Shown piece by piece: positions 23,235 to 48,471 of a stretch of DNA of 64,000 nt. Source of the stretch: Agrobacterium vitis. Lineage in GTDB: Bacteria; Pseudomonadota; Alphaproteobacteria; Rhizobiales; Rhizobiaceae. Positions within the stretch are counted from its first letter, which is position 1, and each line of letters opens with the position of its first letter. The position numbers were made by a program, and so were the translations under genes. Location of the stretch: positions 1 through 64,000 of the forward strand of contig NZ_CP118260.1 of assembly GCF_013337045.2 (NCBI RefSeq). The letters run 5' to 3'. Under the pieces are notes generated by a model. That model had not been told where the DNA came from. It did not search any database and worked only from the letters and a program-made list of their open reading frames with translations.

Positions 23235-23269
23235 TTATCGCATGATGGTGCTCGGCCAAAAGTTGACAG

Positions 23270-23285: not shown

Positions 23286-23320
23286 GCCGACCGGGTCTTG
23301 TGCGGGCAAAAGTATGCGTG

Positions 23321-25404: not shown

Positions 25405-25460
25405 TGCCATTTTATACCAAGTCTCTGACATGCTGACGCATCCTCGCCTTCAGAGCCTCC

Positions 25461-26492
25461 TCAGGAAAAGGCAATCTGAGCTTTCATAGCCTTGCTTCTG
25501 TCGGACGCGATGGTGAAGGCGGAAAGCGCATCCTCCAAGGGAACCGTATGGGTAATCAGCGGCTTGACGTCGATCAGTCCCTTGCGCATCAGTTCCACTC
25601 CGACGGCAAATTCACTGTGGAAACGGAATGAGCCGCGCAGGTCAAGCTCCTTGGCGGTAATGGCCATCATCGGCAGGGTCATGTCGCCACCAAGTCCGAG
25701 TTGCATGATGACACCGCGTGGACGCATGGCGGAAATTCCGCCAGCCAGCGCCGAGGCAACGCCGGTGCATTCGTAAAGCACGTCGAATGTGCCTTTACCC
25801 ACAGTGTATTCTGCAAGGCCGTCCGGCTGGGCTGCGGTGTTGATCACCCGGTCAGCACCCGCCGCTTTGGCAAGTGTCAGCGTAAAATCCGAGAGATCGG
25901 TGGCGACGATTTCCTTTGCCCCGGCCCTCCGGGCGGCAATGATCGACAAAACGCCAATCGGACCGCAACCGGTGACCAGAACCCGCTTGCCGAGCATTTC
26001 ACCGGCCCGGCGCGTTGCGTGCAACGTCACGGCCAGTGGTTCGGCCATCGCCGCCTCCCCTGCTGTCAGTCCATCCGCTACCACGCATTGGCTGGCATCG
26101 GCGACAAGGCTTTGCCGGAACGCACCCTGGATATGGGGGAAGGGCATGGCGCTGCCGTAAAACCGCATATTGATGCATTGATTGTGCAGGCCTTCCTGGC
26201 AATAGGCGCAGGTGTGGCACGGGCGTGACGGTGAGACGGCGACGAGCTGGCCGATGTCCAGTCCTGTGACCCCTGCCCCCAATGTCTCGACATAGGCCGA
26301 GACTTCATGACCAAGGATCATCGGCTGTTTCAGTCGGACCGCGCCAAATCCACCGTGATTGTAATAGTGCAGGTCGCTGCCGCAGATGCCTCCGGTGGCA
26401 AGTCGCAGTTTTACCTCGCCGTGACCGGGCTCGACCTCGTCCACCTCTTCAATGCGAACGTCTTTCGCTGCATGGGCAACAATGGCTTTCAT
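25461..26492 (-). CDS. idnD: L-idonate 5-dehydrogenase
   Basis: This 343-aa zinc-dependent medium-chain alcohol dehydrogenase oxidises L-idonate to 5-keto-D-gluconate. The catalytic zinc site is C37 (GICGSDLHYY) with H62-E63 (GHE). The structural zinc cysteines are C92, C95, C98 and C106. The Rossmann motif GCGPIGVL is near 176-183. The sequence pattern is closer to IdnD than to sorbitol or threonine dehydrogenase, and idnO plus gntK nearby complete the pathway. It is 10 bp downstream of the 2-hydroxyacid dehydrogenase and transcribed with it. Confidence 0.88.
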   Translation of the reverse strand: MKAIVAHAAKDVRIEEVDEVEPGHGEVKLRLATGGICGSDLHYYNHGGFGAVRLKQPMILGHEVSAYVETLGAGVTGLDIGQLVAVSPSRPCHTCAYCQEGLHNQCINMRFYGSAMPFPHIQGAFRQSLVADASQCVVADGLTAGEAAMAEPLAVTLHATRRAGEMLGKRVLVTGCGPIGVLSIIAARRAGAKEIVATDLSDFTLTLAKAAGADRVINTAAQPDGLAEYTVGKGTFDVLYECTGVASALAGGISAMRPRGVIMQLGLGGDMTLPMMAITAKELDLRGSFRFHSEFAVGVELMRKGLIDVKPLITHTVPLEDALSAFTIASDRSKAMKAQIAFS

Positions 26493-26502
26493 GGATTTAT
26501 CC

Positions 26503-27450
26503 TCATAGAACCGGGGTTGGCAGAGCCGAACCGGCGAAATGTGCGATCAGATTATCGCGGACCAACTGGCCCATGGCCTGGCGGGTTTCAATCGTGCCGG
26601 AGGCGTGGTGGGGCTGGAGCAGGACATTATCCAGGGCCAGAAACCGTGGATCGAGCCTGGGCTCGCCTTCGAACACATCCAGCGCGGCTGCGCCCAGCCG
26701 TCCGGTTTCAAGCGCGTCCAGCAGGGCGGCTTCATCGATATTCGTGGCACGGGAGATGTTGATCAGCATACCCTCCGGCCCCAGCGCCTCGATCACATCG
26801 CGCCCGACGATATGCCTTGTATCGGCGGATGCGGCCAGCGTGACAAACAGGAAATCGGATGTTCTGGCCAGTTCCACGGGATCGGCAACGAATGTCATGC
26901 CCTCGGCATACGGCTTGGCGGCGACATCGCTGTAGGAAATCTGCATATCGAAGCCTTTGAGGCGCTTGGCGACCTCAAAGCCGATGCGGCCAAGGCCCAG
27001 CACCCCTGCCCGCCTGCCCCAGACCCGACGTTTCAGCGGATAAAGACCCTTTGCAGCCCAGCTGCCATCCTTCACCCAGGTTTCGGCGCCGATCATGCCG
27101 CGCGATTGGCATAGCATCATCGCTACGCCCAGATCGGCAACGTCATTGGTCAACACATCGGGTGTGTTTGTGACGCGGATGCCACGGGCGCGGCAAGCTT
27201 CAAGATCCACGGCGTCATAGCCAACACCGTAGACCGAGATGATTTCGAGCTTCGGGCAGGCGTCTATCATGGCGCGGTCAGCACCGAGTTCTCCCCTTGT
27301 GGCAATGCCGCAGATGCTTGGTCCGACGGTGGTGAGAAAGGCGGCTTTGTCATGTGCTTCGAAATAGCGATGCACGGAAAATTGCGCATTCAAGGGCTTT
27401 TCGTCCCAGGCCGGATAAGGCCCGACCTGCAAAATCTCCGGCTTTGCCAC
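26503..27450 (-). CDS. D-isomer specific 2-hydroxyacid dehydrogenase
   Basis: This 315-aa NAD(P)-dependent reductase has the GLGRIG nucleotide motif at residues 152-157. The conserved catalytic arginine, glutamate and histidine are in ISRATNID, FEGEPRLD and QPHHASGT. It probably reduces a 2-keto acid such as 2-ketogluconate or glyoxylate/hydroxypyruvate. I start it at the GTG at 27450, which has GGGAGGA ten bases before it; the frame is open to 27663, but that would run through the operator and the divergent idnO start. It is first in an operon with idnD and divergent from idnO across a 107-bp spacer that contains the operator palindrome. Confidence 0.87.
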   Translation of the reverse strand: MAKPEILQVGPYPAWDEKPLNAQFSVHRYFEAHDKAAFLTTVGPSICGIATRGELGADRAMIDACPKLEIISVYGVGYDAVDLEACRARGIRVTNTPDVLTNDVADLGVAMMLCQSRGMIGAETWVKDGSWAAKGLYPLKRRVWGRRAGVLGLGRIGFEVAKRLKGFDMQISYSDVAAKPYAEGMTFVADPVELARTSDFLFVTLAASADTRHIVGRDVIEALGPEGMLINISRATNIDEAALLDALETGRLGAAALDVFEGEPRLDPRFLALDNVLLQPHHASGTIETRQAMGQLVRDNLIAHFAGSALPTPVL

Positions 27451-27497
27451 TTTCTCGTCCTCCCATTGGCGAACCCGTCTAAAAAACTTGACAGGCA

Positions 27498-27513
27498 ATG
27501 TTATCGATAACAT
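27498..27513. promoter_or_regulatory. LacI/GntR-type operator ATGTTATCGATAACAT (copy 1)
   Basis: This perfect 16-bp palindrome fits ATGTTA-N4-TAACAT, the element bound by the E. coli gluconate and idonate repressors GntR and IdnR (LacI family). It sits between the divergent 2-hydroxyacid dehydrogenase-idnD operon and the idnO operon, 45 bp before idnO. The identical sequence occurs at 34966 before the ABC transporter. The regulator is most likely the LacI protein encoded at 30166. Confidence 0.82.
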
Positions 27514-27557
27514 AAACAGGTTCAACAAATGTTGTCGAGATAAAAGTGGAGGATGCC

Positions 27558-28316
27558 ATGTCGCTTGGTCTTTTCGATCTGACGGGGCGCCGCGCGCTGG
27601 TGACAGGGTCTTCGCAAGGCATTGGCTTTGCCCTGGCGCAAGGTTTGCGGGCGGCGGGCGCAACCGTGATCGTGAATGGACGCGATGAAGCCAAACTTGC
27701 CGCCGCCGCCGCCCTGATCGGCGATGGCTGTGATATTCTGGCTTTCGACGTCACCGATCATCAGGCGTCTCGCGATGCCGTCGATGGCTTCGAGGCCAAA
27801 AAAGGCCCTATCGACATTCTCGTCAACAATGCCGGGATGCAGTTTCGCGGCCCGCTGGAAGAGTTTCCGGCAGACGCTTTCGAGCGGTTGTTGCGCACCA
27901 ATATTTCCAGCGTTTTCAATGTCGGCCAGGCTGCGGCCCGGCACATGATCAAGCGCGGCGCAGGCAAGATCATCAATATCGCCAGTGTGCAGACGGCGCT
28001 GGCCCGGCCTTCGATTGCTCCTTACACGGCCACCAAGGGCGCGGTCGGCAATCTCACCAAGGGCATGGCGACGGACTGGGCCAAATATGGGCTGCAATGC
28101 AACGCCATCGCGCCCGGCTATTTCGATACGCCGCTGAATGCAGCACTGGTTGCCGATCCTAATTTCTCCACATGGCTGGAAAAGCGCACGCCAGCCGGGC
28201 GCTGGGGCAAGGTTGAGGAATTGGTGGGTGCTTGCATCTTCCTGGCGTCTGGAGCCTCGTCTTTTGTCAACGGCCATGTTCTGTATGTCGATGGCGGTAT
28301 TACCGCCTCGCTCTAG
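27558..28316 (+). CDS. idnO: Gluconate 5-dehydrogenase (5-keto-D-gluconate reductase)
   Basis: This 252-aa short-chain dehydrogenase interconverts 5-keto-D-gluconate and D-gluconate. The cofactor motif GSSQGIG is near residues 16-22, NNAG near 90-93, the catalytic serine in IASVQT, and the YTATKGA (Y-x3-K) motif near 155-161. The C-terminal FVNGHVLYVDGG is typical. The start at 27558 has GTGGAGG upstream. gntK begins 10 bp after its stop. Together with IdnD it forms the two-step route from L-idonate to gluconate. Confidence 0.88.
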   Translation: MSLGLFDLTGRRALVTGSSQGIGFALAQGLRAAGATVIVNGRDEAKLAAAAALIGDGCDILAFDVTDHQASRDAVDGFEAKKGPIDILVNNAGMQFRGPLEEFPADAFERLLRTNISSVFNVGQAAARHMIKRGAGKIINIASVQTALARPSIAPYTATKGAVGNLTKGMATDWAKYGLQCNAIAPGYFDTPLNAALVADPNFSTWLEKRTPAGRWGKVEELVGACIFLASGASSFVNGHVLYVDGGITASL

Positions 28317-28326
28317 GATCAATGCC

Positions 28327-28821
28327 GTGGTGAAACTTGTACTCATGGGCGTGTCCGGCTGCGGAAAATCCTCCGTTGGCGCTGCATTGGCGGCAAGGCT
28401 CGGCGCAGTCTATATTGACGGCGACGATCTGCATCCGCCGCAAAACATTGCCCGGATGCAGGCGGGCATTCCGCTTGACGACGCGGATCGATCGCCGTGG
28501 TTGGATGCGGTCGGAACACGCCTTGCCGGGGAACAAGGCGTGACCATTATCGGGTGTTCGGCGTTGAAGCGGGCGTATCGCGACAGGATCAGGGAAAAGG
28601 CTGGTGGTGCTGTGCGTTTCATCCATCTGGCTGGCAGCCATGCCGTGATTGCCAGACGGGTCACCGAGCGCCCAGGGCATTTCATGCCTGCTTCGCTGCT
28701 CGACAGCCAATTTGCAGCGCTTGAGCCGCCGCTTGCTGATGAACAGGCGGTGACCGTCGATATCGATCAGCCGCTTGACAGTCTGGTCGCGGCGATTGTT
28801 TCGGCCATAGGGGAGGAATGA
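28327..28821 (+). CDS. gntK: Gluconokinase
   Basis: This 164-aa kinase phosphorylates D-gluconate to 6-phosphogluconate for the Entner-Doudoroff or pentose phosphate routes. The P-loop GVSGCGKS is at residues 8-15, DGDDLHPPQNIARM follows near 31-44, and CSALKRAYRD near 78-87 matches GntK. The C-terminus VDIDQPLDSLVAAI is also family-like. It starts with GTG (28327, with another GTG next to it), giving a normal-length protein. Its stop overlaps the next start as ATGA. This is the third step of the idonate pathway. Confidence 0.9.
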   Translation: MVKLVLMGVSGCGKSSVGAALAARLGAVYIDGDDLHPPQNIARMQAGIPLDDADRSPWLDAVGTRLAGEQGVTIIGCSALKRAYRDRIREKAGGAVRFIHLAGSHAVIARRVTERPGHFMPASLLDSQFAALEPPLADEQAVTVDIDQPLDSLVAAIVSAIGEE

Positions 28822-29708
28822 TCATGACCAACACAGTGGCGCTGATCGGCGCGGGCGCCATGGGCGGCGCAATCGGCAGGAGGCTGGTTGAAACCTGCAA
28901 CCAACTGACGGTCTTTGACCTCAATGCTGAAAAGGTGGCGGAGTTGACCGCGCTTGGCGCGACGTCTGCAAAGACGGCGGCGGAGGCTGCATCGCGCTCG
29001 GACTATGTTATTCTCAGCCTCAATGCGCCGCATATCATTCGGGCCGCGGTGTTCGGCAAGGACGGAGTGACTGAGGGCGCAAAACCCGGGACGTTGATTA
29101 TCGACATGTCCTCCATCGACCCGGAGGCAACGCGGCAATTGGCTGGGGATGCGGCGGAAAAGGGTTTGCGCTGGGTCGATAGCCCGCTTTCAGGCGGCGC
29201 ACCCAAGGCGGCGATTGGTGAATTGACGTTGATGGCTGGCGGGACAGAGCAGGACGTGGCCGATGCCCATCAGGTTTTGCAGCATGTCGCATCTAATTAT
29301 ACGCATATGGGTCCAGTGGGTGCAGGCCAAACCACCAAGCTGATCAATCAGGTGCTGTGTGGCCTGAATTTTTTGGCCGTGGCCGAGGCAACGCAATTGG
29401 CGCTGGACGCTGGCGTCGATGCCGCGAAAATCCCGCAGGCATTGAAGGGCGGCCGGGCCGATAGCGCCATCCTCCAGGAATATATGCCACGGTATGTCAC
29501 CAAGGATTATCGTCGCACGGGTCGGATTGACAATATGGTCAAGGACCTGAACGGCGCACAGGATCTGGCGCGGCGCACCAATACGGCCATGCCGCTGACG
29601 GCAGTCTGCGCCGAGGTGCATCGGATGCTGACAGCGGCGGGCCTGGGTGGAGAAGACCAGGCCATGTTGATGGAATTTTTCACCGGAGCAAAAAGGGAGA
29701 CCTCCTGA
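28818..29708 (+). CDS. 3-hydroxyisobutyrate dehydrogenase family NAD(P) oxidoreductase
   Basis: This 296-aa beta-hydroxyacid dehydrogenase has the nucleotide motif GAGAMGGAIG near residues 9-18 and the substrate motif DSPLSGGAPKAAIGELTLM near 119-137. The catalytic lysine lies in GAGQTTKLINQVL near 170-182. The family includes tartronate semialdehyde reductase (GarR) and gamma-hydroxybutyrate dehydrogenase. Placement between gntK and a small protein in the idonate operon suggests reduction of a short aldehyde or keto acid made from a sugar acid. It overlaps the next start as TGATG. Confidence 0.86.
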   Translation: MIMTNTVALIGAGAMGGAIGRRLVETCNQLTVFDLNAEKVAELTALGATSAKTAAEAASRSDYVILSLNAPHIIRAAVFGKDGVTEGAKPGTLIIDMSSIDPEATRQLAGDAAEKGLRWVDSPLSGGAPKAAIGELTLMAGGTEQDVADAHQVLQHVASNYTHMGPVGAGQTTKLINQVLCGLNFLAVAEATQLALDAGVDAAKIPQALKGGRADSAILQEYMPRYVTKDYRRTGRIDNMVKDLNGAQDLARRTNTAMPLTAVCAEVHRMLTAAGLGGEDQAMLMEFFTGAKRETS

Positions 29709-30040
29709 TGATCACACGTTACGCCTTGTTTGAAGGCACGGTAAAGCCAGGGCAGACGGAGGCATTCCGCGCTGCTGTTCTTGAGACCATCTTGCCAAAA
29801 TGGAAGCAGTTTCCAAAGGCGATGGATGTTAGAGTGTCCTTCGCCGAGGCCCGTGATGATGGCGCGCCGGAATTTCCGATGATCCTGGCGATCAACTACC
29901 CGAATCTGGAGGCGGTCGAGGCCGCGCTGGCCAGCCCGGTTCGCGCCGAGGCCCGTGCGGCAACAGAAGCGGTGCTCTCGCAGTTCTTCGATGGACGCAT
30001 CCATCATCACGTGACTCTCGCCAACGAATTTGCCCTTTGA
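29708..30040 (+). CDS. Small protein, possibly of dimeric alpha-beta barrel fold
   Basis: This 110-aa protein begins MITRYALFEGTVKPGQTEAF and ends in a strand-rich tail (IHHHVTLANEFAL). Its pattern of a starting strand, a long helix (FRAAVLETILPKW) and further strands resembles small EthD or antibiotic-monooxygenase-like proteins, but I see no firm family motif. Its start overlaps the previous stop by one base (TGATG), so it is translated as part of the idonate operon. The function is unknown. Confidence 0.7.
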   Translation: MITRYALFEGTVKPGQTEAFRAAVLETILPKWKQFPKAMDVRVSFAEARDDGAPEFPMILAINYPNLEAVEAALASPVRAEARAATEAVLSQFFDGRIHHHVTLANEFAL

Positions 30041-30165
30041 CAAGGGGCTCGTGGGGTCCCCTCTCCTTTTTGGGGTGGGTTGCCGGTTGGAAAAGCTTTT
30101 AGCTGGCTTTTATTCACCTTATAAACGCAGTGTAACACGCTGAAAACCATAGCAAGGGCCATTGG

Positions 30166-31179
30166 GTGACTGATTTCCGCAAACCGCCAACCATGGCCGA
30201 TATTGCCCGCGTCACGGGAGTGTCGCCGATGACGGTGTCGCGGGCCTTCAAGACCGATAGTCTGATCAGCAAGGAAACCCGCGATGCCATTTTACTGGCG
30301 GCGGAGGATCTTGGCTATGTGTTCGATTCCACTGCCTCCAATCTAAGGTCACAGCGCTCCGATTTTGTTGCGGTTACTATTCCCTCGATCAATAATGCCA
30401 ATTTCGCCGATACGGTTGGCGGGCTCTCGGAAACGCTCGCCACCCGGAAGATGCAAATCCTGCTTGGTTATACCAATTACGATATGCAGGAAGAGGAACG
30501 GCTGATCGAGCAATTGCTCCGCCGCAAGCCGCAGGCCATCGTCGTGACTGGTGGCAAGCATACGCCCCGCGCCCGCAAATTACTGGCCAATGCCCATATT
30601 CCAGTGATCGAAACCTGGGATGTGCCCTTCGAGCCGATTGGTCACTATGTCGGTTTTTCCAATGCCGGTGCGGTTTGCGCCATGGTCGATCATTTCGTTG
30701 CCGTCGGCTATCGGCGCCTGGCCTTCATTGGCGGGGATGTCGGGCGAGACACACGCGGTAGTGATCGCCGCAATGGTTTTATTGCTGCGATGAACCGCCA
30801 TGGGCTGGATGCATCGCGGTTGATCGCCGCCGGTCCACCGCCGATCTCGATGCGCGAAGGCGCGAATGCCATGACGCGGCTGCTGGAAACGCTGCCCGAT
30901 ACCGAAGCGGTGATTTGCGTATCGGACCTGTCGGCATTCGGCGCCTTGACGGAATGTCAGCGGCGCGGCATCGCCGTGCCAGAGGGGATCGCCATTGCAG
31001 GGTTTGGCAATTATGAAATCGGCGCGATTTCCGTGCCGACGATTACCACCATCAATGCCTTTTCCCGCGACATCGGCGAGAAGGCAGCACGGCTTATCCT
31101 GGATCTGCTCGACGGGCGGCCATTGGCTGGAAACATCACCATCACGCCCGAACTGATCCTGCGTGACAGCAGTCTGTAG
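30166..31179 (+). CDS. LacI family regulator (GntR/IdnR-like)
   Basis: This 337-aa repressor has the LacI helix-turn-helix near residues 9-30 (TMADIARVTGVSPMTVSRAFK), the hinge around NLRSQRSDFVAV, and a periplasmic-binding-protein-like sensor domain to the end. It starts with GTG at 30166; an in-frame ATG at 30193 is an alternative that begins right at the helix-turn-helix. GntR-type repressors bind ATGTTA-N4-TAACAT, and two perfect copies of that element flank the regulon, so this protein very likely controls the catabolic and the transporter operons. The expected inducer is gluconate, idonate or a related acid. Confidence 0.9.
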   Translation: MTDFRKPPTMADIARVTGVSPMTVSRAFKTDSLISKETRDAILLAAEDLGYVFDSTASNLRSQRSDFVAVTIPSINNANFADTVGGLSETLATRKMQILLGYTNYDMQEEERLIEQLLRRKPQAIVVTGGKHTPRARKLLANAHIPVIETWDVPFEPIGHYVGFSNAGAVCAMVDHFVAVGYRRLAFIGGDVGRDTRGSDRRNGFIAAMNRHGLDASRLIAAGPPPISMREGANAMTRLLETLPDTEAVICVSDLSAFGALTECQRRGIAVPEGIAIAGFGNYEIGAISVPTITTINAFSRDIGEKAARLILDLLDGRPLAGNITITPELILRDSSL

Positions 31180-31187
31180 AGGGTAAA

Positions 31188-31213
31188 GCCATGCGCCGGT
31201 GAAGGCGCATGGC
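31188..31213. terminator. Bidirectional terminator hairpin
   Basis: GCCATGCGCC (31188-31197) and GGCGCATGGC (31204-31213) form a perfect 10-bp stem with a 6-nt loop between the convergent LacI gene and the sugar-binding protein gene. The U-tract is poor on both strands. Confidence 0.7.
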
Positions 31214-31225
31214 AGGGTTATCAGC

Positions 31226-32320
31226 TCATTTGCCCCAGATCTTCTTATAGGCATCCCGATAGCCATTGTCGGGATCGAAGCTGTTTTTCGGTCCGCCATC
31301 GAATTCGACATTGTCGGCAGTCACCACATGCAGTGGCGACATGTAGCCGGACCATTTTTCGCCATTGAGGGCTCGGTTCAGCTCATCCACCAATTGCCAG
31401 CCTTGCAGGTTCAAGGGTTCGGCCACCGTCACCTTCTGGTACTGACCAGCGCGGATGCGCTGATAGGCGGATTCGGAACCATCCCCTGCGGCGACATTGA
31501 TCGGTGCATCGGTTCCCCCCTTCCCTGCCGAGGCGAGCGATGGTCCCATGAAATCGAAGTAAAGGTCGTTGATGGCCAACGTATGGGTCCAGCTGTCGCC
31601 GTATTTCTGCAACAGCGAGGTGGTCAGCTGTGGCATGCGCTGCGAGGTTTCGGCAATCGGCGTATCGACATAGGCCAGAACCTTGCCGCCCAGCCGCTCG
31701 ATTTCTTCCTTCATTTTGTCAGCTTTGGCGATGGCGATCGCATAGGTCGAGTCGGTAAAGATGATGACGCCCGGCTTTCCCTTGGCATCGACATAGGCCC
31801 AGTTGGCGGCAGCTTTCGAAACTTCCATGGCATCGGTGCTGATATTGGCAAACAGGCCGTTCTTTTCGTCCGGTCCGATGGTGGGACCTGCATGCCAGGC
31901 GACCAGCGGTATTTTGGCGACTTTCGCCTGTTCAAGCGCGGGTGCCTGTTCTACAGCATCGAAACCGTCGATAATGATGGCGTCCGGTTTCAAGGCCATT
32001 GCCTGACCGAAGGCTGCGGTACGCCCACCGATCGAGCCTGCGCCATCCAGAACCTTGACCTTCCAGCCGATGGCCTTGGCAGCTTCCTCGACACCATTGC
32101 TGACGCCGAGGATACCACCGTTTTTCAGATCGCCGGCGAGAACAACGATGGTTTTTCCCGGCTGCGGTTTCGGGGCGCTTTTCGGTCCGTCCCAAGTTGT
32201 AACCTTGCTGGCATATTTATCGACCACGGCGTTGGCTTCGGCCATCGGGTCGGCCCAGGCGTTGCCCGCCGTGAGCAGGATCAAGGCGCCGGTTGCTTGC
32301 AGGATATGTCTGCGTTTCAT
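31226..32320 (-). CDS. Sugar/sugar-acid ABC transporter, periplasmic binding protein
   Basis: This 364-aa ribose-type binding protein (Peripla_BP_4) has a signal peptide that ends near residue 23 (GNAWA). The core reads TIVVLAGDLKNGGILGVSNGVEEAA with KPDAIIIDGFDAVEQ further on, typical of the family. I use the second ATG (32320) because GGGAGGA lies too close to the first at 32326. It is expressed from the operon headed by the ATPase gene and its 34966 operator. Shared regulation with idnD, idnO and gntK suggests that the ligand is L-idonate, gluconate or 5-ketogluconate, unlike E. coli, which uses the IdnT symporter. Confidence 0.88.
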   Translation of the reverse strand: MKRRHILQATGALILLTAGNAWADPMAEANAVVDKYASKVTTWDGPKSAPKPQPGKTIVVLAGDLKNGGILGVSNGVEEAAKAIGWKVKVLDGAGSIGGRTAAFGQAMALKPDAIIIDGFDAVEQAPALEQAKVAKIPLVAWHAGPTIGPDEKNGLFANISTDAMEVSKAAANWAYVDAKGKPGVIIFTDSTYAIAIAKADKMKEEIERLGGKVLAYVDTPIAETSQRMPQLTTSLLQKYGDSWTHTLAINDLYFDFMGPSLASAGKGGTDAPINVAAGDGSESAYQRIRAGQYQKVTVAEPLNLQGWQLVDELNRALNGEKWSGYMSPLHVVTADNVEFDGGPKNSFDPDNGYRDAYKKIWGK

Positions 32321-32359
32321 GTCCATTCCTCCCTCTGGAAATTACTGAAAAGGATGCTG

Positions 32360-33418
32360 TTATTGTTGCTTGGGTTGAGGCGTGCTGGTTGGTGCCATGC
32401 GACCTGAAAGGCTGCGCCGCCGTTGGGCGTAGCCAGCAATACCGATGGCGACCAGCAGGGTGACGCCGTTAAACAATGGCTCGACATAGAAGGACCCGCC
32501 AATCTGCTGGATGCCAGCAATGCCGACGGCCAGGATAATCACGCCGATCATCGTCCCCCAGACATTGACGCGGCCAGGCTTGATGGTAGTGGACCCAAGA
32601 AAAGCGCCAACCAGGGCCGGGAGCAGATATTCCAAACCAACGCTGGCCTGGCCGATCCGCAGCTTGGAGGCGAGCAGCACGCCAGCCACCGCAGCAAGTG
32701 TGCCTGACGTGACAAAGGCACCGATGACGAAGCGGCGAACCGGAATACCATTCAGCGCGGCGGCCTTTGGATTGGCGCCGATGGCGTAGACGTATCGTCC
32801 AAGTGGTGTGTATTCGAGCACCAGCCACATCACCACTGCCAGCGCCAGAACATAGAAGCCGGTAATTGGCAGGCCGAAAACCATGGTGCCATTCAGGCTG
32901 TAAAAACCTTGCGGCAACATGCCAACCACCTGTCGCCCGCCGGTATGCCAAAGCGCGATGGCGTAGAGCACGGTGCCTGTGCCGAGGGTAGCAATGAAGC
33001 TGTCGATCTTGGCGACTTCGACCAGGAGGCCGTTGAGAAAGCCGGTAAAGGCACCGAGCGCAATGACGACCAGCACCGCGACTGGCCAAGGCAGGCCGAA
33101 CATGGTTTGCAGGCTGATGGCCAGGACGTGCCAGAGCACGATGCCATAGCCAATGGTGAGGTCAATGCGTCCGGCGGCCATGGGGATCATGGCTGCCAGC
33201 GACAGGATGGCGATGATCGTTTTGTCGGAGATAATCGAGCGTAGGTTCAGAACGGTCGGAAAGGTCTGCGGCAAGAGAATGGAAAACAGCAAGATCAGCC
33301 CCACGGTCAATATGACGAGACCGTAAACAGGTAACAGACGCTGGATTTTCTGCGCTGTGCTCATGCCGGAAAGCTCGGCTCGCGTTGGCTCCAACGCGTT
33401 GGATTCGATGGATTGCAT
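32360..33418 (-). CDS. Sugar/sugar-acid ABC transporter permease (RbsC-like)
   Basis: This 352-aa inner-membrane permease of the BPD_transp_2 family has eight to ten hydrophobic segments. MAAGRIDLTIGYGIVL near residues 79-94 corresponds to the conserved G-x-DLS region, and ATLGTGTVLYAIA near 142-154 and a C-terminal LLPALVGAFLGSTT match RbsC relatives. It lies between the ATPase gene and the binding-protein gene, separated by 16 and 39 bp, and should form the pore as a homodimer. Confidence 0.9.
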   Translation of the reverse strand: MQSIESNALEPTRAELSGMSTAQKIQRLLPVYGLVILTVGLILLFSILLPQTFPTVLNLRSIISDKTIIAILSLAAMIPMAAGRIDLTIGYGIVLWHVLAISLQTMFGLPWPVAVLVVIALGAFTGFLNGLLVEVAKIDSFIATLGTGTVLYAIALWHTGGRQVVGMLPQGFYSLNGTMVFGLPITGFYVLALAVVMWLVLEYTPLGRYVYAIGANPKAAALNGIPVRRFVIGAFVTSGTLAAVAGVLLASKLRIGQASVGLEYLLPALVGAFLGSTTIKPGRVNVWGTMIGVIILAVGIAGIQQIGGSFYVEPLFNGVTLLVAIGIAGYAQRRRSLSGRMAPTSTPQPKQQ

Positions 33419-33434
33419 TGGTTCTCTCCCAGGT

Positions 33435-34931
33435 TCAGGCCGCGTCCGAGGCGGAGGCTGCGGCGATCACCGCTTCTGTGGTTAGGTCCGGCCCGCTCAA
33501 TTCTCGTAGGATCTGGCCGCGAGAAAATACCAGCGCCCGCTGGCAGATATGGGCGATTTCTTCAAAATCGGTGGAGACCACCAGAACGGCCAATCCGCCT
33601 GCGACGGCCTCTGCGATCAGGCGATAGATGTCGGCTTTGGCGCCAACATCGACACCGGCGGTCGGATCTTCGGCCACCAGCAGGCGACGGCCTGTCGCCA
33701 GCCAGCGACCCACCACGACTTTTTGTTGGTTGCCGCCGGAAAGTGCTTCTATGGCAAGGCTCTGGTCGTTGGGCCGCAAGCCGACGCTCGCGCCAATCGC
33801 ATAGGCTTGCGCGGCTTCCTTGGCAGGGGTCAGAAAGGAAAGGAGACGGCGGCCCGAAGCGGCAGGATTGATGAAGGTGTTTTCCCGCAGGCTCAAGGAC
33901 ATGGCGACCGACTCTTCTGTTCGGTCTCGGGCGATCAATCCGATCCCGCTTGCCATGGCTGTTGAGGGGTTGGTGAGATCGACAGGGCGGCCGGAAATCG
34001 TAACGGTGCCTGAGGCGGGCTCGGCGCCGAACAGTGCGCGACCGACCATTTCATGACCCGCGCCACGCAGCCCGACAAGTCCGAGCAATTCACCTTGGCG
34101 GATGTTGAAATTGACCGGCCCTGCCCCGTGGGAGGCAAGATTTCTGACGGTGACGATGGCGGGTCCTGCAGGACTTGTGCTCTTGGTGAAGAGCTGGTCT
34201 GCCTTGCGCCCGACGATCATTCTGATCAATTCGTCAGGCGTTGTTTGGTTTACGGGCTTTTCACCAACCAGTTGTCCGTCCCGTAAGACGGCGACGCGGT
34301 CGGCGATGCGGAAGATTTCATCAAGGCGATGTGAGACATAGATCATCGCCACGCCACGTTCTTTTAATGGGCGGATCGCGGCAAAGAGTTTTTCGACCTC
34401 ATCAGCCGGTAGGCTGGCGGTCGGCTCGTCCAGTACGAGGACGTGGGCTTCGACGGCGAGCGCACGGGCAATAGCCACCAATGACTTTTCTGTCCGTGTC
34501 AGGCTCTGGATACGTGTGGAGGCATCGAAGTTGCAGCCGACGAGCGCAAGGGCTTCGGCGGTCCGCTGTTCGGTTTGTTTCCAGTTGATAAGGCGGTTGC
34601 GTAGTGAATACCCTTGGGCAAGGCCGACATTTTCGGCAACGGTCATCCATTCTATCAGTCCGAGATCTTGATGAATGAAGGCAACAGGCTGGCGCTGGTT
34701 TGGCTTTGGTGGCCGGTGGTTATAAGTCTCTCCACGAAATCTGATTTCACCGGTGTCTGGCTTGTAAATACCTGCGAGGGTCTTGATCAGGGTAGATTTT
34801 CCAGCACCGTTTTCGCCGAGCAGGGCGAGGATTTCACCTGGCCGCAGGTCAAGAGAGACGTTTGACAGGGCGCGTGTTCCGCCGAAGGTTTTTGTGATCG
34901 CACAAAATTCCAGTAGTTTTTCGTCGACCAT
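33435..34931 (-). CDS. Sugar/sugar-acid ABC transporter ATP-binding protein (RbsA-like, two ATPase domains)
   Basis: This 498-aa protein has two ABC domains in tandem. Domain 1 has Walker A GENGAGKS near residues 38-45 and Walker B VLVLDEPTASL near 160-170. Domain 2 has a degenerate Walker A (LVGLRGAGHEM) and a signature LSGGNQQKVVVGRWLA near 395-410 with EDPTAGVDVGAK. This asymmetry is normal for RbsA/AraG proteins. The start at 34931 follows GGAGGAG at good distance. The ATGTTATCGATAACAT operator lies 35 bp upstream. Confidence 0.92.
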   Translation of the reverse strand: MVDEKLLEFCAITKTFGGTRALSNVSLDLRPGEILALLGENGAGKSTLIKTLAGIYKPDTGEIRFRGETYNHRPPKPNQRQPVAFIHQDLGLIEWMTVAENVGLAQGYSLRNRLINWKQTEQRTAEALALVGCNFDASTRIQSLTRTEKSLVAIARALAVEAHVLVLDEPTASLPADEVEKLFAAIRPLKERGVAMIYVSHRLDEIFRIADRVAVLRDGQLVGEKPVNQTTPDELIRMIVGRKADQLFTKSTSPAGPAIVTVRNLASHGAGPVNFNIRQGELLGLVGLRGAGHEMVGRALFGAEPASGTVTISGRPVDLTNPSTAMASGIGLIARDRTEESVAMSLSLRENTFINPAASGRRLLSFLTPAKEAAQAYAIGASVGLRPNDQSLAIEALSGGNQQKVVVGRWLATGRRLLVAEDPTAGVDVGAKADIYRLIAEAVAGGLAVLVVSTDFEEIAHICQRALVFSRGQILRELSGPDLTTEAVIAAASASDAA

Positions 34932-34965
34932 TGTTACTCCTCCCAAAGTCACAGAAACCTAGCGT

Positions 34966-34981
34966 ATGTTATCGATAACAT
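34966..34981. promoter_or_regulatory. LacI/GntR-type operator ATGTTATCGATAACAT (copy 2)
   Basis: This 16-bp perfect palindrome is identical to the one at 27498-27513. It is 35 bp upstream of the start of the three-gene ABC transporter operon. Two identical perfect palindromes of this length, each placed in front of one half of a catabolic gene set, are strong evidence for a shared repressor. Confidence 0.82.
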
Positions 34982-36004
34982 GTCGTCAAGTGACGTTCTG
35001 CGGAGCACTTAAAGGTAGATTTCGAGGAGGGGTTACGTTAGGTAGTGAAGGTATATCGACAACCTATACGCGAAAATAAATGTTCATTGGCTAGGAGGGA
35101 TCAATCTCTGTTTGCCGAAGGGCAAACTGAAGCAAGTGTCCCTAGGAAGGTATTGGTTTAATTTGCCAACCACGAAAGCTTCGGCCTCTCTTCGCCAAGA
35201 ACCTTTGTGGCTGTTTCGCCGTCGTGTCTTGCTTGCGCAGATTGTGCGCTGGGCTAAGAGGTGCTGCGATAAGGGGGGCGAGCCGATAGGTTTTGCGAAG
35301 GCTTTCGGTCTTGCACGGTTTATTTTCAACAAGCCTATGGGGAGAACAGGGGTGCCTTGATGAGGGTGAGCTTTGACATGAAGGTGATGTTGTCAGTTGG
35401 TTTTCAGTATGTCGTCGCTAGGGAGGCGGGAGTGTTGGTGCGTTGAATATTGGTGGGCATTTTAGCGGTCGTCGAAGATCTAAATACGCATAGGTCGTGC
35501 TTCTCTTTATTATTGTCGTCTTATTCGTTTGGGGCAGAACTCAGCGCGCTAGTTTTTGTCACCGGGGCTTTAACGTCGTTCTTGCGATGACGTTTGTGTT
35601 TAACGCGTGAGATGCTTCGATCTTGTTGTGGGTTCATTGCTCCTGACGTTATGGATAGTTTCCTCTTCGCTGTCCTGCCCTGCCCCATGGTCTTGTTGGC
35701 TACAGGTTGGAATATCATGGTCGAGTTTTTGTGATTTTGCGGCCGTTAATTTTTCTGGTCCTTGCTCGTTTGCCTGCAGTGTGTCGAGATTCTTAGCGGT
35801 GAAGGGTTCCTTTTAAACAGGCTCTTATGGGGAGGCTTTATTCTATGGCGTAATGGTTCGCCTAAACGAGTGCGCTGCTAAGGACGTTTGGACTTCGCGT
35901 GCTTCTATTGCCCGAGCGGAGATTTCGACCTTCTGGAAATTAGAGAATGTCATTCGCTTTTTGTCTTGCAGAAGGCGCCTTTTTAAGGCGGCGGTTCTTG
36001 CGCT

Positions 36005-36020
36005 GTTGACAGCTGTCAAC
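36005..36020. promoter_or_regulatory. parS-like palindrome (copy 1)
   Basis: GTTGACAGCTGTCAAC is a perfect 16-bp palindrome that fits the repABC centromere consensus GTT-N4-GC-N4-AAC at every fixed position. An identical copy begins 33 bp later, about three helical turns, which would place two RepB dimers on the same face. It is about 31.5 kb from the end of repC. RepB binding is inferred from the consensus. Confidence 0.72.
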
Positions 36021-36037
36021 GCCAGAAAATGCACGAC

Positions 36038-36053
36038 GTTGACAGCTGTCAAC
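36038..36053. promoter_or_regulatory. parS-like palindrome (copy 2)
   Basis: This is an exact second copy of the 16-bp palindrome at 36005, separated from it by 17 bp. It also fits GTT-N4-GC-N4-AAC fully. The surrounding bases are not repeated, so this is not a simple local duplication. Confidence 0.72.
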
Positions 36054-36461
36054 AGTGATCTTCTTTCTGCCGTAACGTAAATAAACGGACCTCGGCGATG
36101 TAATGAAGCGGATATCCTTGGGGAGTTCTAGTTGAAAAGATGCGACGTCAAAGGCTGCCATTCACTCTAGGCGTTCCGCATAGCATTGGGTGTGTGGCCT
36201 AGGCGTGTGCACAAACTAAAAAATGGTTGGTAGCGCAAAATTCACCACTTCTTTACTCCTGGCAGTGCATAACTCAGCCAAGCGCGAAATGTAGTGCGTA
36301 CGCGCGGTTTTCTTCTGAGCATAAGCAGTTGGCTTCTAAGCTCCAGCATATTGCTCCTTTTCCTCCACGATAAAACATCCCGAGTTTTTTAAGGTCTGCC
36401 TCGACTTTGCCATGCGAATCGTGTCAGCGCACTGCTCCAATAAAAAAACAGGAGTGGGTCC

Positions 36462-41348: not shown

Positions 41349-42385
41349 AAATTCGCTCCATGTCGTCTTTCTTGAAGCCGCAATTTGCAGCGCTCATCGC
41401 CGTCCTGCTGTTGAACTGGATGGTATTTCCCGGCTTCTTCGATATCGCCTGGCGCGATGGCCGCTTGTTCGGCAGCCTGATTGATGTGCTCAATCGTGGC
41501 GCACCGGTTGCCATTCTCGCCATCGGCATGACTGCCATCATTGCAACACGCGGTGTCGATCTTTCCGTCGGCGCGGTCATGGCCGTGGCGGGTGCCGTGG
41601 CCGCCACCTGCGCCGTTGCAGGCCAGCCCTTGGTGGTGACCTTGGCAGCAGCGCTTGCCGTGGCGCTCGCTTGCGGCATCTGGAATGGCCTGCTGGTTGC
41701 CTATCTCGGTATCCAGCCTTTTGTGGCGACGCTGGTGCTGATGGTGGCGGGCAGGGGGCTAGCGCAATTGGTCACATCCGGCTCGATTGTCACCTTCAGC
41801 GATCCGGCTCTGATTTTCGTGGGAACTGGATCACTGCTTGGCTTTCCGATGCCGGTGGTGATTGCCGTGGTGCTGATGCTGTCAGCCCATATCTTCATGC
41901 GCCGCACCGCCATTGGATTGTTTATCGAGGCGATCGGCACCAATCTTTCGGCGGCAAATTATACCGGGCTTCGCAGTCGCGCGCTGATTCTTGGGGTTTA
42001 CGCTTTTGGCGGTCTGTGCGCGGGTATCGCCGGCACCATCGCCGCTGCCGATATTCGCGGCGCTGATGCCAACAATGCCGGGCTATGGCTGGAGCTGGAT
42101 GCCATCCTTGCTGTCGTTATCGGCGGCACGTCGCTTCTGGGTGGTCGATTTTCCATTCCGATGTCGGTTCTGGGCGCAGTGATCATTCAGGCGATGAATA
42201 CCGGCATTCTGGTTTCAGGACTGCCGCCGGAATTCAATCTCATCGTCAAGGCCAGTGTGATCATCATCATCCTGGTCCTGCAATCGGACCGCGTCAGCGA
42301 ACTGGTCAGTTTCTGGAAACACCGGCCCGCCGTCTTGCCCAAAAACACTCAGGCTAAAATCCAGGCTTCGGAGAAAACAGGATGA
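41345..42385 (+). CDS. ytfT: Sugar ABC transporter permease (YtfT)
   Basis: This 346-aa inner-membrane permease of the BPD_transp_2 family contains MTAIIATRGVDLSVGAVMAVAGAV-type sequence near residues 62-82, the conserved G-x-DLSVG motif, and a C-terminal LDAILAVVIGGTSLLGGRF. It overlaps ytfR at its start and yjfF at its stop (ATGA in each case). It should pair with YjfF as a heterodimeric pore. Confidence 0.91.
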   Translation: MKIRSMSSFLKPQFAALIAVLLLNWMVFPGFFDIAWRDGRLFGSLIDVLNRGAPVAILAIGMTAIIATRGVDLSVGAVMAVAGAVAATCAVAGQPLVVTLAAALAVALACGIWNGLLVAYLGIQPFVATLVLMVAGRGLAQLVTSGSIVTFSDPALIFVGTGSLLGFPMPVVIAVVLMLSAHIFMRRTAIGLFIEAIGTNLSAANYTGLRSRALILGVYAFGGLCAGIAGTIAAADIRGADANNAGLWLELDAILAVVIGGTSLLGGRFSIPMSVLGAVIIQAMNTGILVSGLPPEFNLIVKASVIIIILVLQSDRVSELVSFWKHRPAVLPKNTQAKIQASEKTG

Positions 42386-43362
42386 ACCCGCGCTATCGGC
42401 CGCTTGCTGCCACGACCCTGATTTTCATCGTCGCCTATACGCTCTGTGTCATCAGCTATCCCGGCATGTTTTCAACCCGTGTCCTGGGCAATTTCCTGAC
42501 GGACAATGCATTTCTGGGCATTGCTGCTGTTGGGGCGACCTTCGTTATCCTGTCGGGCGGGATCGATCTGTCCGTCGGCGCCGTCATTGGGTTGACAGGC
42601 GTTATCACCGCCCTGCTGATCAGCCATGTGGGGCTTGATCCGATTGTGGTCTTTCCACTGGTGCTGGTGCTTTCGGCCTGTTTCGGCGCGGTGATGGGGG
42701 CGGTTATCCATTTCCTGAAGGTGCCGCCCTTTATCGTCACCCTAGCGGGGATGTTTCTGGCGCGAGGCATCGCCTCGGTTTTGACCCAGGATAGTATCCC
42801 CATCGATCATCCGATCTACCGCACCATTTCGCAGGCCTATTTTCGCCTGCCCGGCGGAGGCCGGTTGAGTGCCATCGGTTTGTTGATGCTGGCGGCGTTT
42901 CTGGTTTGCGGCTTTATCGCTCATCGCACCCGGTTCGGTTCCTATGTCTATGCGATTGGAGGCAATCCCGTTTCGGCGGCGCTGATGGGGGTGCCCACCG
43001 GGCCGGTGACGATTGGCATCTATGGCCTTTCCGCCTTCCTGTCCGGCCTGGCAGGCATCGTCTATTCGCTTTATACCTCAGCTGGCTATCCACTTGCAGC
43101 GGTTGGCATCGAGCTTGACGCCATCGCGGCGGTAGTGATAGGCGGCACACTGCTGACTGGAGGATATGGTTTTATCTTCGGCACTTTGATCGGCGTCATG
43201 CTGCAAGGGCTGGTGCAAACCTATATTGTTTTTGAAGGCACGCTTTCCAGTTGGTGGACGAAGATTGCCATTGGTGCTTTGCTGTTTATGTTCATTCTGT
43301 TGCAGAAGCTGGTATTTCACGCCGGAAGTGGACGGACGAGGACGAAAAAGGCGTCTGCATGA
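42382..43362 (+). CDS. yjfF: Sugar ABC transporter permease (YjfF)
   Basis: This 326-aa second permease has FVILSGGIDLSVGAVIGLTG near residues 54-73 and ELDAIAAVVIGGTLLTGGYG near 237-256. The presence of two different permeases is the mark of the YtfQRT-YjfF type and separates it from ribose and xylose systems. Its stop overlaps the following GntR gene as ATGA, so the regulator belongs to the same transcript. Confidence 0.91.
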   Translation: MNPRYRPLAATTLIFIVAYTLCVISYPGMFSTRVLGNFLTDNAFLGIAAVGATFVILSGGIDLSVGAVIGLTGVITALLISHVGLDPIVVFPLVLVLSACFGAVMGAVIHFLKVPPFIVTLAGMFLARGIASVLTQDSIPIDHPIYRTISQAYFRLPGGGRLSAIGLLMLAAFLVCGFIAHRTRFGSYVYAIGGNPVSAALMGVPTGPVTIGIYGLSAFLSGLAGIVYSLYTSAGYPLAAVGIELDAIAAVVIGGTLLTGGYGFIFGTLIGVMLQGLVQTYIVFEGTLSSWWTKIAIGALLFMFILLQKLVFHAGSGRTRTKKASA

Positions 43363-44087
43363 TCGAACCAGGCAGCCTGCTTCGCTCCCTTTCCGGGCGG
43401 ATCACGGCGCGCAATTTCCACTCTCACGTCATCAACGAAATCGGAGCGGGCGTTATTTCCGGACGCTTTGCGGTTGGCTCCATCCTGCCCAACGATGCTG
43501 CCCTGATGGACGAGTTCAGCGTTTCGCGCACCGTGCTGCGAGAGGCGTTGAAGACGCTGGAAGCCAAGGGCCTGGTGGAAGCCCGGCCCAAGGTCGGCAC
43601 CAAGGTTGCTAAGAAAAGTCGCTGGAACCTCTATGATCGACAGGTGTTGGCTTGGTGTCTCGAAACCCAGCCGGATGGTGAATTTTTGCGCGGGCTTGAC
43701 GAGGTACGGCGCTCTCTGGAGCCGCTGGCGGCAAGTGATGCTGCAAGCGATCATACCTGTGACCAGATCCGCCTGATGCATTATTGGCTGCGGCAGATGG
43801 AGCTTGCCCTGGATGAGCCGCAAAGCTTCAGCTTGGCCGATTTCGAGCTGCACAGGATCATAGCCGAGGCATCCAGCAATCCGTTCCTGCGGGCGTTGCA
43901 GGGCGTGATCGAACTGTCGCATGCGCTCGCTTATTTGCCCGCCGTGCGCGACGGTAAGGTTTGCGATCTTAGCTCTGTGCTGCAAAGCCACCGGGCTCTC
44001 GTCACGGCCATTGAGCGCGGCCTTGCCGAAGAGGCAGCAGCGGCGATGATCGGCACTATCGAGCAGGACCACGCACGGATGTCGTAA
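43359..44087 (+). CDS. GntR family regulator, FadR/FCD subfamily
   Basis: This 242-aa regulator has an N-terminal winged helix (GSILPNDAALMDEFSVSRTVLREALKTLEAKGLVEAR in pieces, residues 39-75) and a helical FCD ligand domain with the metal-binding set around DFELHRIIAEASSNP and the closing SHRALVTAIERG. It starts at 43359, overlapping the yjfF stop. A longer open frame to 43251 lies inside yjfF and is not used. It probably controls the transporter operon in response to a sugar acid such as a galactonate- or arabonate-type metabolite, as related regulators do. Confidence 0.9.
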   Translation: MIEPGSLLRSLSGRITARNFHSHVINEIGAGVISGRFAVGSILPNDAALMDEFSVSRTVLREALKTLEAKGLVEARPKVGTKVAKKSRWNLYDRQVLAWCLETQPDGEFLRGLDEVRRSLEPLAASDAASDHTCDQIRLMHYWLRQMELALDEPQSFSLADFELHRIIAEASSNPFLRALQGVIELSHALAYLPAVRDGKVCDLSSVLQSHRALVTAIERGLAEEAAAAMIGTIEQDHARMS

Positions 44088-44105
44088 TGTGTCCACTCAG
44101 GGGGG

Positions 44106-44137
44106 GATGGCATGCATTTTTGACAATGCATGCCATC
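44106..44137. terminator. Bidirectional terminator hairpin
   Basis: GATGGCATGCATT (44106-44118) and AATGCATGCCATC (44125-44137) form a perfect 13-bp stem with a 6-nt loop between the convergent GntR and aldehyde dehydrogenase genes. Both strands show a short T-containing tail. Confidence 0.78.
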
Positions 44138-44157
44138 TTGTCATTCAATCCAACAGA

Positions 44158-45606
44158 TCAGAACGGGTAATGCTGGTTCGGATCTTCGATTGTGATCCAG
44201 CGCAGGTCGGTGAATTCGTTGATTGCCGCCTTGCCGCCAAACCGTCCGTAGCCGGAGTTTTTCACGCCGCCAAACGGCATTTGCGCCTCATCGGCAACGG
44301 TCGGGCCGTTGATATGGCAAATGCCGGCTTCGATACGGGCCGCAATCGCCAGGGCGCGCTGGATATCGCGGCTGAAAATTGCTGAGGACAGACCATATTC
44401 GCTATCATTGGCGATGCGGATGGCCTCTTCCTCGTCCTTGACCCGGATGACCGGTTTTACGGGGCCGAAGCTCTCTTCGTCAAAGCTGCGCATTCCAGCC
44501 TTGACGTGGTCGAGAAGCGTTGCTTCCACCACGCTGCCCGTGACCTTGCCGCCAGCGGCGAGGGTTGCGCCCTTGCCGACGGCATCATCGATGAATTCCT
44601 GCATCTTGATGGCGGCCTGAGGATTGACCAGCGAGCCCAGCACGACATGGCCGCGCGGATCGCCAGCGGGAAGCGAGGCAGCGCGGGCCGCCAGCTTTGC
44701 GACGAATTCGTCGGCAACCTTTTCATGGACGATCAACCGCTCCGTGGACATACAGATCTGGCCCATGTTCATGTAGCAGCCAAACACCGCCGCATTGACG
44801 GCAGCATCAATATCGGCATCCTCAAGCACCAGAAAGGGTGCTTTTCCGCCCAGTTCAAGCAGAGCGGGCTTCAGGTGGCGACCACACAATTCGCCGATGA
44901 TGCGTCCGACCTTGGTCGAACCGGTGAAATTGACACGGCGTACTTCCGGTGCGCTCACCAGCGCCTCCACCACCTGGGCGGCATCTTCAGGCGCATTGGT
45001 GATGACGTTGATGACGCCATCCGGCAGACCGGCCTCGACCAGCACCTGGCCGATCAGGACATGGACGCCGGGGCAGGCTTCGGACGCTTTCAGGATGACG
45101 CTGTTGCCGCAGGCAATCGCCATGGCAATGGCGCGTGTGCCGAGAATGATCGGTGCGTTCCAAGGCGCAATGCCAAGGCAGACGCCTGCTGCCTGGCGCA
45201 CCGCCATGGACAATGTACCGGGCTTGTCGGAAGGGATGACTTCGCCTTGGATCTGGCTGGTCATGCTGGCAGCTTCTCGCAATATGCCAGCGGCAAGCAT
45301 GGTATTGAAGCCGGCCCAGGGACCGGTCGCACCCGTTTCCGTGATCATCAGCGCGGTGAAATCTGCCGCTTTTGAGGCCATGATATCGGCTGCTTTCAGC
45401 AGCAGTGCACGCCTTTCGCCGGGGCCGGTGCGCGACCAGGCGGGAAAGGCCGCCTGGGCTGCGGCAATCGCTGCCTTGACATCGTCCAGGCCGGAGGCCG
45501 GGGCGCGGGAAGCAACCTCGCCATTGAACGGATCGATCCGGTCGAAGGTCTTGCCCGACAAGGCTCCGACTTTCTTGCCACCAATGATTTGCTGGATTTC
45601 GTGCAT
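44158..45606 (-). CDS. NAD(P)-dependent aldehyde dehydrogenase (aromatic-aldehyde type)
   Basis: This 482-aa ALDH has the catalytic cysteine in NMGQICMSTERLIV near residue 281, the general-base glutamate in LELGGKAPF near 250, the NAD motif FTGSTKVG near 226, and the C-terminal PFGGVKNSGYGRFGG. The IAPWNAPIILGTRAIA stretch recalls salicylaldehyde and vanillin dehydrogenases more than ketoglutarate semialdehyde dehydrogenase. The start at 45606 has AGGAAGAAG upstream; the frame stays open into the neighbouring gene and should not be extended. A close paralogue lies 80 bp upstream on the same strand. The substrate is undetermined. Confidence 0.88.
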   Translation of the reverse strand: MHEIQQIIGGKKVGALSGKTFDRIDPFNGEVASRAPASGLDDVKAAIAAAQAAFPAWSRTGPGERRALLLKAADIMASKAADFTALMITETGATGPWAGFNTMLAAGILREAASMTSQIQGEVIPSDKPGTLSMAVRQAAGVCLGIAPWNAPIILGTRAIAMAIACGNSVILKASEACPGVHVLIGQVLVEAGLPDGVINVITNAPEDAAQVVEALVSAPEVRRVNFTGSTKVGRIIGELCGRHLKPALLELGGKAPFLVLEDADIDAAVNAAVFGCYMNMGQICMSTERLIVHEKVADEFVAKLAARAASLPAGDPRGHVVLGSLVNPQAAIKMQEFIDDAVGKGATLAAGGKVTGSVVEATLLDHVKAGMRSFDEESFGPVKPVIRVKDEEEAIRIANDSEYGLSSAIFSRDIQRALAIAARIEAGICHINGPTVADEAQMPFGGVKNSGYGRFGGKAAINEFTDLRWITIEDPNQHYPF

Positions 45607-45686
45607 GTCTTCTTCCTCCACGTGTGTGCGACCCCTGTCGCAGTTTTTTGTTGGTATGCCTGGGTAATTATGCGGAAGTTGCGCGT

Positions 45687-47213: not shown

Positions 47214-47432
47214 ATGCAATGCCTCCTCCCAAAGGCCTGTTCCCGACAGCGTTTTCACCATTGATCCGAAACAGCTTGTTTCACGCTGTTTTTCTGGAAT
47301 TCTTCATGGTGAGAAAATCCGTCAGACATGTATTGCGGGCAACTCTAACGATTTGCGCGGAAAGAAGAATGTAGATATCTGGGTTCTGATTGTCGATTTC
47401 TGGTCAATTGCCGCAATTTGGAGACTGTCCCA

Positions 47433-48332: not shown

Positions 48333-48376
48333 TTACCGTATTTTGTGCAATTTTCTTGAGTTGCTGGAAACAGCTG

Positions 48377-48417
48377 GAGAGCATTTCAGTGTTTATATTA
48401 AACACTGAAATGCTCTC
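48377..48417. terminator. Perfect 19-bp inverted repeat with 3-nt loop
   Basis: GAGAGCATTTCAGTGTTTA (48377-48395) and its exact complement (48399-48417) are separated by TAT. It lies between the convergent AraC and RraA-like genes and can act as a bidirectional terminator, although no long U-tract follows. A perfect stem of this length with a GAGCATTTCA core resembles dispersed intergenic palindromes of rhizobial genomes, which would have to be checked by a genome search. Confidence 0.8.
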
Positions 48418-48471
48418 TCTTCGTTTTAGGTATTTCTGGACGCCAAACTGGAAAAAAATGGCGGGAATAAT

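Follow-up and report, generated by a model that had tools for sequence, protein, structure and literature searches.

Paired parS palindromes distant from repABC as probable centromere of a chromid in the Allorhizobium/Agrobacterium vitis group, and the polarity of KOPS around them

Results and discussion

Two identical perfect palindromes of 16 bp, separated by 17 bp and located 31.5 kb behind the end of repC (position 4509), are very probably the parS centromere, away from the origin, of a 1.148-Mb repABC chromid that appears to be laid out around parS. The host of the chromid is a bacterium of the Allorhizobium/Agrobacterium vitis group. The window, i.e., the whole stretch of DNA analysed, presents the first 64 kb of contig C2 (1,147,840 bp) in a genome of 6,084,750 bp on five contigs. 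KOPS, the sequences that orient the FtsK DNA pump toward dif, are directed outward on either side of parS and meet at a dif-like site at 8.23 kb. This site and parS divide C2 into two arms, one short (28 kb) and one long (about 1.12 Mb). The features of the window are compiled in Table 1.

Table 1 Features of the window with coordinates, strand and basis of the assignment
Feature	Position	Strand	Basis and remarks
repA (ParA-type ATPase)	1..1263	+	Pfam AAA_31, 7.8e-38; contig begins at repA start codon
repB (ParB-type centromere-binding protein)	1245..2342	+	Pfam RepB 6.4e-17 and ParB_N
Antisense ctRNA-like sequence in the repB-repC gap	2525..2568	-	RF00489, 30.9 bits, E 1.3e-4; below gathering score 50
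repC (initiator)	3292..4509	+	Pfam RP-C 4.4e-56 and RP-C_C
dif-like site, candidate XerCD site	8228..8248	+	18/21 to SL42-derived motif; between ORFs ending at 8203 and starting at 8344
Short arm, KOPS GGGNAGGG mostly minus, pointing from putative parS to dif-like site	10485..35685	-	One exception, 26137
Putative degenerate parS GTTGACATCTGTCAAC	23270..23285		One mismatch; in 86-bp gap between ORFs, 18.8 kb after repC
Putative centromere region, non-coding and AT-rich, 1509 bp	34953..36461		GC 48.5 %; right boundary is the ORF at 36462
Putative parS copy 1, perfect palindrome GTTGACAGCTGTCAAC	36005..36020		Sequence match
Putative parS copy 2, perfect palindrome GTTGACAGCTGTCAAC	36038..36053		Sequence match
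Start of long arm, four plus-strand GGGCAGGG after putative parS	41749..55171	+	At 41749, 50292, 51607 and 55164

The repABC operon and the distant palindromes

The contigs C2, C3, C4 and C5 carry one RepB gene each, near the contig start. On C2 the repB gene, which has a further ATG at 1260, encodes the sole RepB found. In repABC replicons, oriV is located within repC according to the text of PMC9040568 (Czarnecki et al. 2022). The gap between repB and repC (2343-3291) measures 949 bp, compared to 175-342 bp in four annotated relatives, and yielded just one match to ctRNA_p42d, at 2525-2568 and below threshold. The RNAs of the window scoring above the Rfam gathering scores were a cobalamin riboswitch (18505-18720), a terC RNA (9383-9443) and a sul1 RNA (57785-57837).

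The initial annotation had proposed an operon devoid of parS. This was borne out: copies of the 16-mer with up to three mismatches were absent from repABC and from the DNA upstream of repA at the contig end, and near-palindromes of the type GTT...AAC (at least 14 of 16 positions) were absent from -3 kb to +5 kb around repABC. A better parS upstream of repA, outside of the window, had been named there as an objection, and none was present at the C2 contig end. The palindrome pair itself was located at the coordinates given before, and the 16-mer fits the consensus GTTN4GCN4AAC. Its surroundings, described as 1.5 kb poor in genes, comprise 1509 bp in which two overlapping ORFs of 82 aa are the only ones wholly inside; the GC content is low relative to the 57.4 % of the whole replicon. 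The initial annotation was right about paired sites, but had overlooked the third copy with its one mismatch. At up to three mismatches, the window contains four matches to the 16-mer, shuffled sequences on average 0.17. As a genome-wide search pattern, the loose consensus GTTN4GCN4AAC was discarded as noise, since its 97 matches were fewer than the 153 of the reversed control pattern. A gene with DUF1612 and HTH_13 domains (Pfam) adjoins the region at 37458-38612; a tRNA-Ala called by ARAGORN at 37521-37612 lies inside this gene and was set aside.

Assignment of the palindromes to parS

In repABC and FtsK systems, RepB binds parS, RepA moves parS, and FtsK follows KOPS to dif. Scattering of the 16-mer over all replicons, which had been considered a sign against a centromere, was not observed in the genome-wide scan: with no or one mismatch, the 16-mer is confined to C2 in the 6.08-Mb genome, and two mismatches add a single site (C5:51138). 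Near its own repB, C5 has other palindromes (GTTGGGAGCTCCCAAC), located just before the gene. The presence of the pattern GTTGACANCTGTCAAC was compared with that of a close RepB (55-98 % identical) in 60 genomes: the genome itself, 35 congeneric ones and 24 from the same order. All 19 same-genus genomes with a close RepB, two of these matches (G023, G031) being read through one stop codon, contained the pattern; so did 2 of 16 without, namely G008 (one-mismatch forms) and G013 (Fisher 5e-8). The exact 16-mer was present in 18 of the 19 and in one of the 16, and none of the 24 order relatives had GTTGACANCTGTCAAC. The single exact copy without a close RepB in its genome (G013:C45:55217-55232) lacks a KOPS polarity. 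Among named replicons picked from the match lists for a related RepB (eight) or RepA (one), GTTGACANCTGTCAAC was found in nine of nine. In comparison to A. taibaishanense, the 18-bp stretches with the palindromes are identical, and most of the surrounding non-coding DNA is unalignable. For the plasmid pAMI4, binding of RepB to the same 16-mer, incompatibility and plasmid loss after deletion of 3parS are reported in the text of Czarnecki et al. 2022 (PMC9040568).

In favour of an operator for a transcriptional regulator with a similar recognition sequence are the perfect dyad symmetry, the pairing of copies, which operators often show, and the ORF that begins at 36462, some 410 bp downstream of the palindromes. 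A constant position at a regulated promoter was not found, however: number, spacing and position of the palindromes vary among species, the copies are confined to C2 and track RepB across genomes, and the polarity of KOPS flips at the palindromes. The operator, brought forward as an alternative in the initial annotation, is thus very improbable. Still less credence is given to the other alternative raised there, sites left by a second, lost or co-resident replicon that fused into C2. The distance from repABC and the low GC content of the locus would suit such a relic, but a search for RepB revealed one gene on C2 and the other three on C3, C4 and C5, the palindromes of C5 are different, and the arrangement recurs over the Allorhizobium clade.

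A centromere displaced from the origin, the preferred reading, is supported by the restriction to one replicon, the co-occurrence with RepB, the conserved islands and the published case of A. vitis chromosome 2. RepB from the repABC operon would bind the palindrome pair 31.5 kb downstream of repC and, as expected from the protein families, RepA would pull the RepB-parS complexes apart; segregation would then begin at a point away from the replication origin.

Remote parS in related replicons

Copies of the 16-mer at a considerable distance from repB were located in S. meliloti Rm41 pSymB (about 105-123 kb), S. medicae pSMED01 (about 114-115 kb, plus a variant about 103 kb away), SL42 (153-158 kb, besides one copy just after repC), CC-CFT758 (213 kb), NCHU2750 (about 89 kb; already in PMC9040568) and E. 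adhaerens pCasidaAA (about 365 kb). In N. galegae pHAMBI1141a, Shinella H4-D48 and S. sumterensis, copies lie directly upstream of repA. A tree of 31 RepB proteins (16 classed as displaced, 13 as near and 2 as outgroup) requires four changes for the displaced state, at least three of them forced by well-supported branches.

Polarity of KOPS

On C2, KOPS are found 118 times in forward and 35 times in reverse direction. From the dif-like site to parS (8.26-36.0 kb) 11 are on the minus and one on the plus strand, the rest of C2 has 117 on the plus and 24 on the minus strand. The sequence GGGCAGGG is reverse in seven of seven cases between 10.5 and 35.7 kb, and the next four, from 41.7 kb on, are forward. 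The flip occurs at the parS of the window: the KOPS at 35678 is on the minus strand and the one at 37060 on the plus strand; a further minus KOPS at 37463 is followed by plus ones. Gene direction does not account for this polarity, because the minus-strand genes alone, as assigned by crude ORF-based calls, show opposite biases on the two arms (long arm +56/-6, short arm +1/-8, p 2e-6). The segregation layout of the replicon would accordingly be organised around parS, if the pattern has its cause there.

The same polarity was observed in other replicons. Within 8 kb of a remote or separately assembled parS, 134 KOPS pointed outward and 10 inward in 22 replicons, which share descent, were picked for a parS away from repB or on another contig rather than at random, and are in part also among the 80 named loci (the best 80 of 178 RepB relatives). 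For five of the 22 (G004, G018, G023, G028, G031) parS and repB are on different contigs. Of the 80 loci, 17 have an exact parS near repABC; about this parS, within 8 kb, 133 KOPS were directed outward and 13 inward. Around repABC, 57 outward and 100 inward KOPS were counted at the 63 loci without an exact parS nearby, several of which have a one-mismatch site within reach, with approximate limits of repABC. At two of the 17 loci (L145, L148), the only site is located approximately at the repC end, with no KOPS outward and three inward.

The best change point of KOPS direction overlapped the parS cluster or was at most 1 kb away in 19 of the 22 replicons, three of which (the window, G026, G031) tie with a second change-point interval; G007, which lacks the exact 16-mer, was left out of this set. 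Exceptions were pSymB and pSMED01, with change points about 11-19 kb from the parS pair, and G013, which gave no fit. On pCasidaAA the change point is inside the parS cluster. A flip at the parS of pSymB, suggested by GGGCAGGG alone, was rejected, as all KOPS place it 11.6-17.1 kb away.

KOPS with only C or T at N (GGG[CT]AGGG) and the corresponding mirror motif were counted in 19 replicons, leaving out G012, G015, G013 and the left half of pSymB. GGG[CT]AGGG was directed outward 60 times and inward 4 times, outward prevailing in 18 replicons with one tie, and the mirror motif with only C or T at N gave a ratio of 9:6. A first mirror control, GGGANGGG, yielded 69:16 outward and was contaminated, because GGGAAGGG fits both patterns; with the stricter mirror GGGA[CGT]GGG a bias remained (44:11). 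Part of the outward bias may be common to other G-rich motifs.

At 15 loci, parS is upstream of repB. There, KOPS are +7/-67 upstream of parS and +37/-3 from parS to about mid-repC, which identifies parS as the turning point and not the origin inside repC. On pAMI4, a minus KOPS at -13267 is followed by the three parS (-13101 to -12643) and by plus KOPS from -11661; no turn was present at repABC, and one plus stands among the minus KOPS further left. S. meliloti 1021 pSymA has a different palindrome, GTTCCCCGCGGGGAAC, upstream of repA, with perfect palindromes at -363, 481 and 1169; KOPS are minus at -487 and plus from 670, again with one plus among the minus on the left. Overlapping GGGCAGGG form a short tandem array in another replicon (G015:C2:742410-742447), some 330 bp from its parS pair. 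In the literature searched, mainly open text without figures and supplements, no statement on a divergence of KOPS at parS was found; a turn of KOPS at parS rather than at the origin may be a new observation.

A dif-like site at the convergence of KOPS

KOPS converge at the dif-like site of the window, with a plus at 257 and minus from 10485 on. The 21-bp motif was built from convergence-zone matches of SL42 and A. taibaishanense, the 21/21 of SL42 thus being by construction; on C2 the best match reached 18/21 and the next best 15/21. The motif is present where KOPS converge in the window (8228), G012, G015, A. taibaishanense and SL42; the core is conserved where the flanks differ (window compared with G012, G015 and G011). 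By its position at the convergence and its ATAA-N6-TTAT core, the core of E. coli dif, the site at 8228 is a candidate dif. The E. coli dif consensus revealed nothing convincing in the window, and the motif (at least 18/21) was not detected in stretches of the convergence zones of Shinella H4-D48 and A. terrae.

On pSymB, the KOPS convergence (624-627 kb) is a long way from the position opposite repABC, which agrees with the text of PMC13342612, where the dif of pSymB is described as offset from ter. A dif opposite parS was rejected for this replicon, the convergence not being near 837 kb. In SL42 (172.9-212 kb) KOPS converge 30-35 kb from parS, in Shinella H4-D48 (88-98 kb) 6-9 kb from parS. 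Also in SL42 and Shinella H4-D48, dif seems to lie beside the centromere.

GC skew and mode of replication

The cumulative GC skew increases along the circular C2. Both GC skew and T-over-A skew have a positive sign in almost every 50-kb bin, with one slightly negative bin each, and the GC skew is positive on both sides of the window parS (0.073 and 0.034 over 8 kb). This composition suggests a C2 replicated by one fork. Strain S4 of A. vitis is the same as A. ampelinum S4. The text of PMC13342612 describes, for chromosome 2 of A. ampelinum and for pAMI4, profiles in keeping with unidirectional replication; the skew of C2 fits the former. These two replicons are the two remote-parS cases in the text of PMC9040568. 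The main text of PMC13342612 names parS three times, in no case together with KOPS or the replication mode.

The GC skew also bears on the main rival for the KOPS part of the explanation, a parS that is the centromere combined with a KOPS polarity that is a historical trace: repABC would have left, while parS and the polarity stayed at the old origin. A change from minus to plus GC skew across parS was present in 4 of 19 replicons (pSymB, pSMED01, pCasidaAA, G026), and a translocation is supposed by Czarnecki et al., there of the region upstream of repA (PMC9040568, text). The other 15, however, keep the sign of the GC skew across parS (11) or turn from plus to minus (4), and on the RepB tree at least three changes are needed for the displaced label. 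The density of KOPS is higher near parS (nominally 0.41 per kb) than on C2 (0.13) and at the 63 loci (0.16), and dense short KOPS arms stand beside parS in SL42 and Shinella H4-D48. Where parS is upstream of repA, the KOPS between parS and mid-repC are already directed outward. A mere trace of the former origin is a possible, but rather unlikely explanation.

Implications

It is reasonably probable that in repABC chromids the centromere and not the origin is the centre of polarity, that selection maintains KOPS directed from parS to dif at whatever position parS has, and that oriV, dif and parS are separately movable. In our reading of these patterns, parS rather than oriV would set the segregation axis: parS would be the anchor of segregation, and selection would keep the KOPS pointing from this anchor to dif. 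If so, oriV, dif and parS of the A. vitis chromid are all within 36 kb, and the divergence of KOPS shows from sequence alone which parS copies work as centromere. With parS usually beside the origin, it is difficult to decide which of the two, origin or centromere, orders the DNA for FtsK; the text of PMC6199493 has parS as invariably near the origin and not movable far. Replicons with a remote parS are natural experiments separating both. If the relation is causal, the layout of these replicons serves segregation from the centromere, independent of the direction of replication. This causality can be tested with published data, Hi-C and marker frequency for chromosome 2 of A. ampelinum and for pSymB, and marker frequency for pAMI4.

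Comparison with known systems

The usual, though not defining, place of parS in repABC replicons is in or beside the operon; the pair in the window differs from it by its 31.5 kb to repC. P. aeruginosa PAO1-UW shares a decoupling of the segregation, KOPS and skew landmarks from the replication landmarks, but there the decoupling is at the dif/terminus end, the origin side is unseparated and parS is treated as always close to the origin (PMC6199493, text). With 3parS of pAMI4 (Paracoccus aminophilus) the window has in common the same 16-mer, an AT-rich non-coding locus downstream of repC and the divergence of KOPS; pAMI4 differs in one parS kept between repB and repC, another order, a distance of 11.5 kb after repC and the experimental proof. 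The pSymB-type chromids (S. meliloti Rm41, S. medicae WSM419) and E. adhaerens pCasidaAA have a RepB of 56-57 % identity and the same distant 16-mer. Among named RepB genes, the nearest belong to A. vitis CG118 and NCPPB 3554 (98 %) and to chromosome 2 of strain CG78 (96 %).

For chromosome 2 of Allorhizobium vitis S4 and its relatives, the text of PMC9040568 describes an operon without parS, two parS in an AT-rich non-coding region of 1.5-2.4 kb, 30-90 kb downstream of repC, and a degenerate parS 15-20 kb downstream of repC, located either inside a gene or in a gap of about 100 bp. The window agrees in all of these: no parS in the operon, two parS in 1509 bp with a GC content of 48.5 % at 31.5 kb, and a one-mismatch parS at 18.8 kb in a gap of 86 bp. 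The layout is without difference, KOPS and dif not being discussed in that text. The displaced centromere of the window is a further example of the arrangement already described there (PMC9040568).
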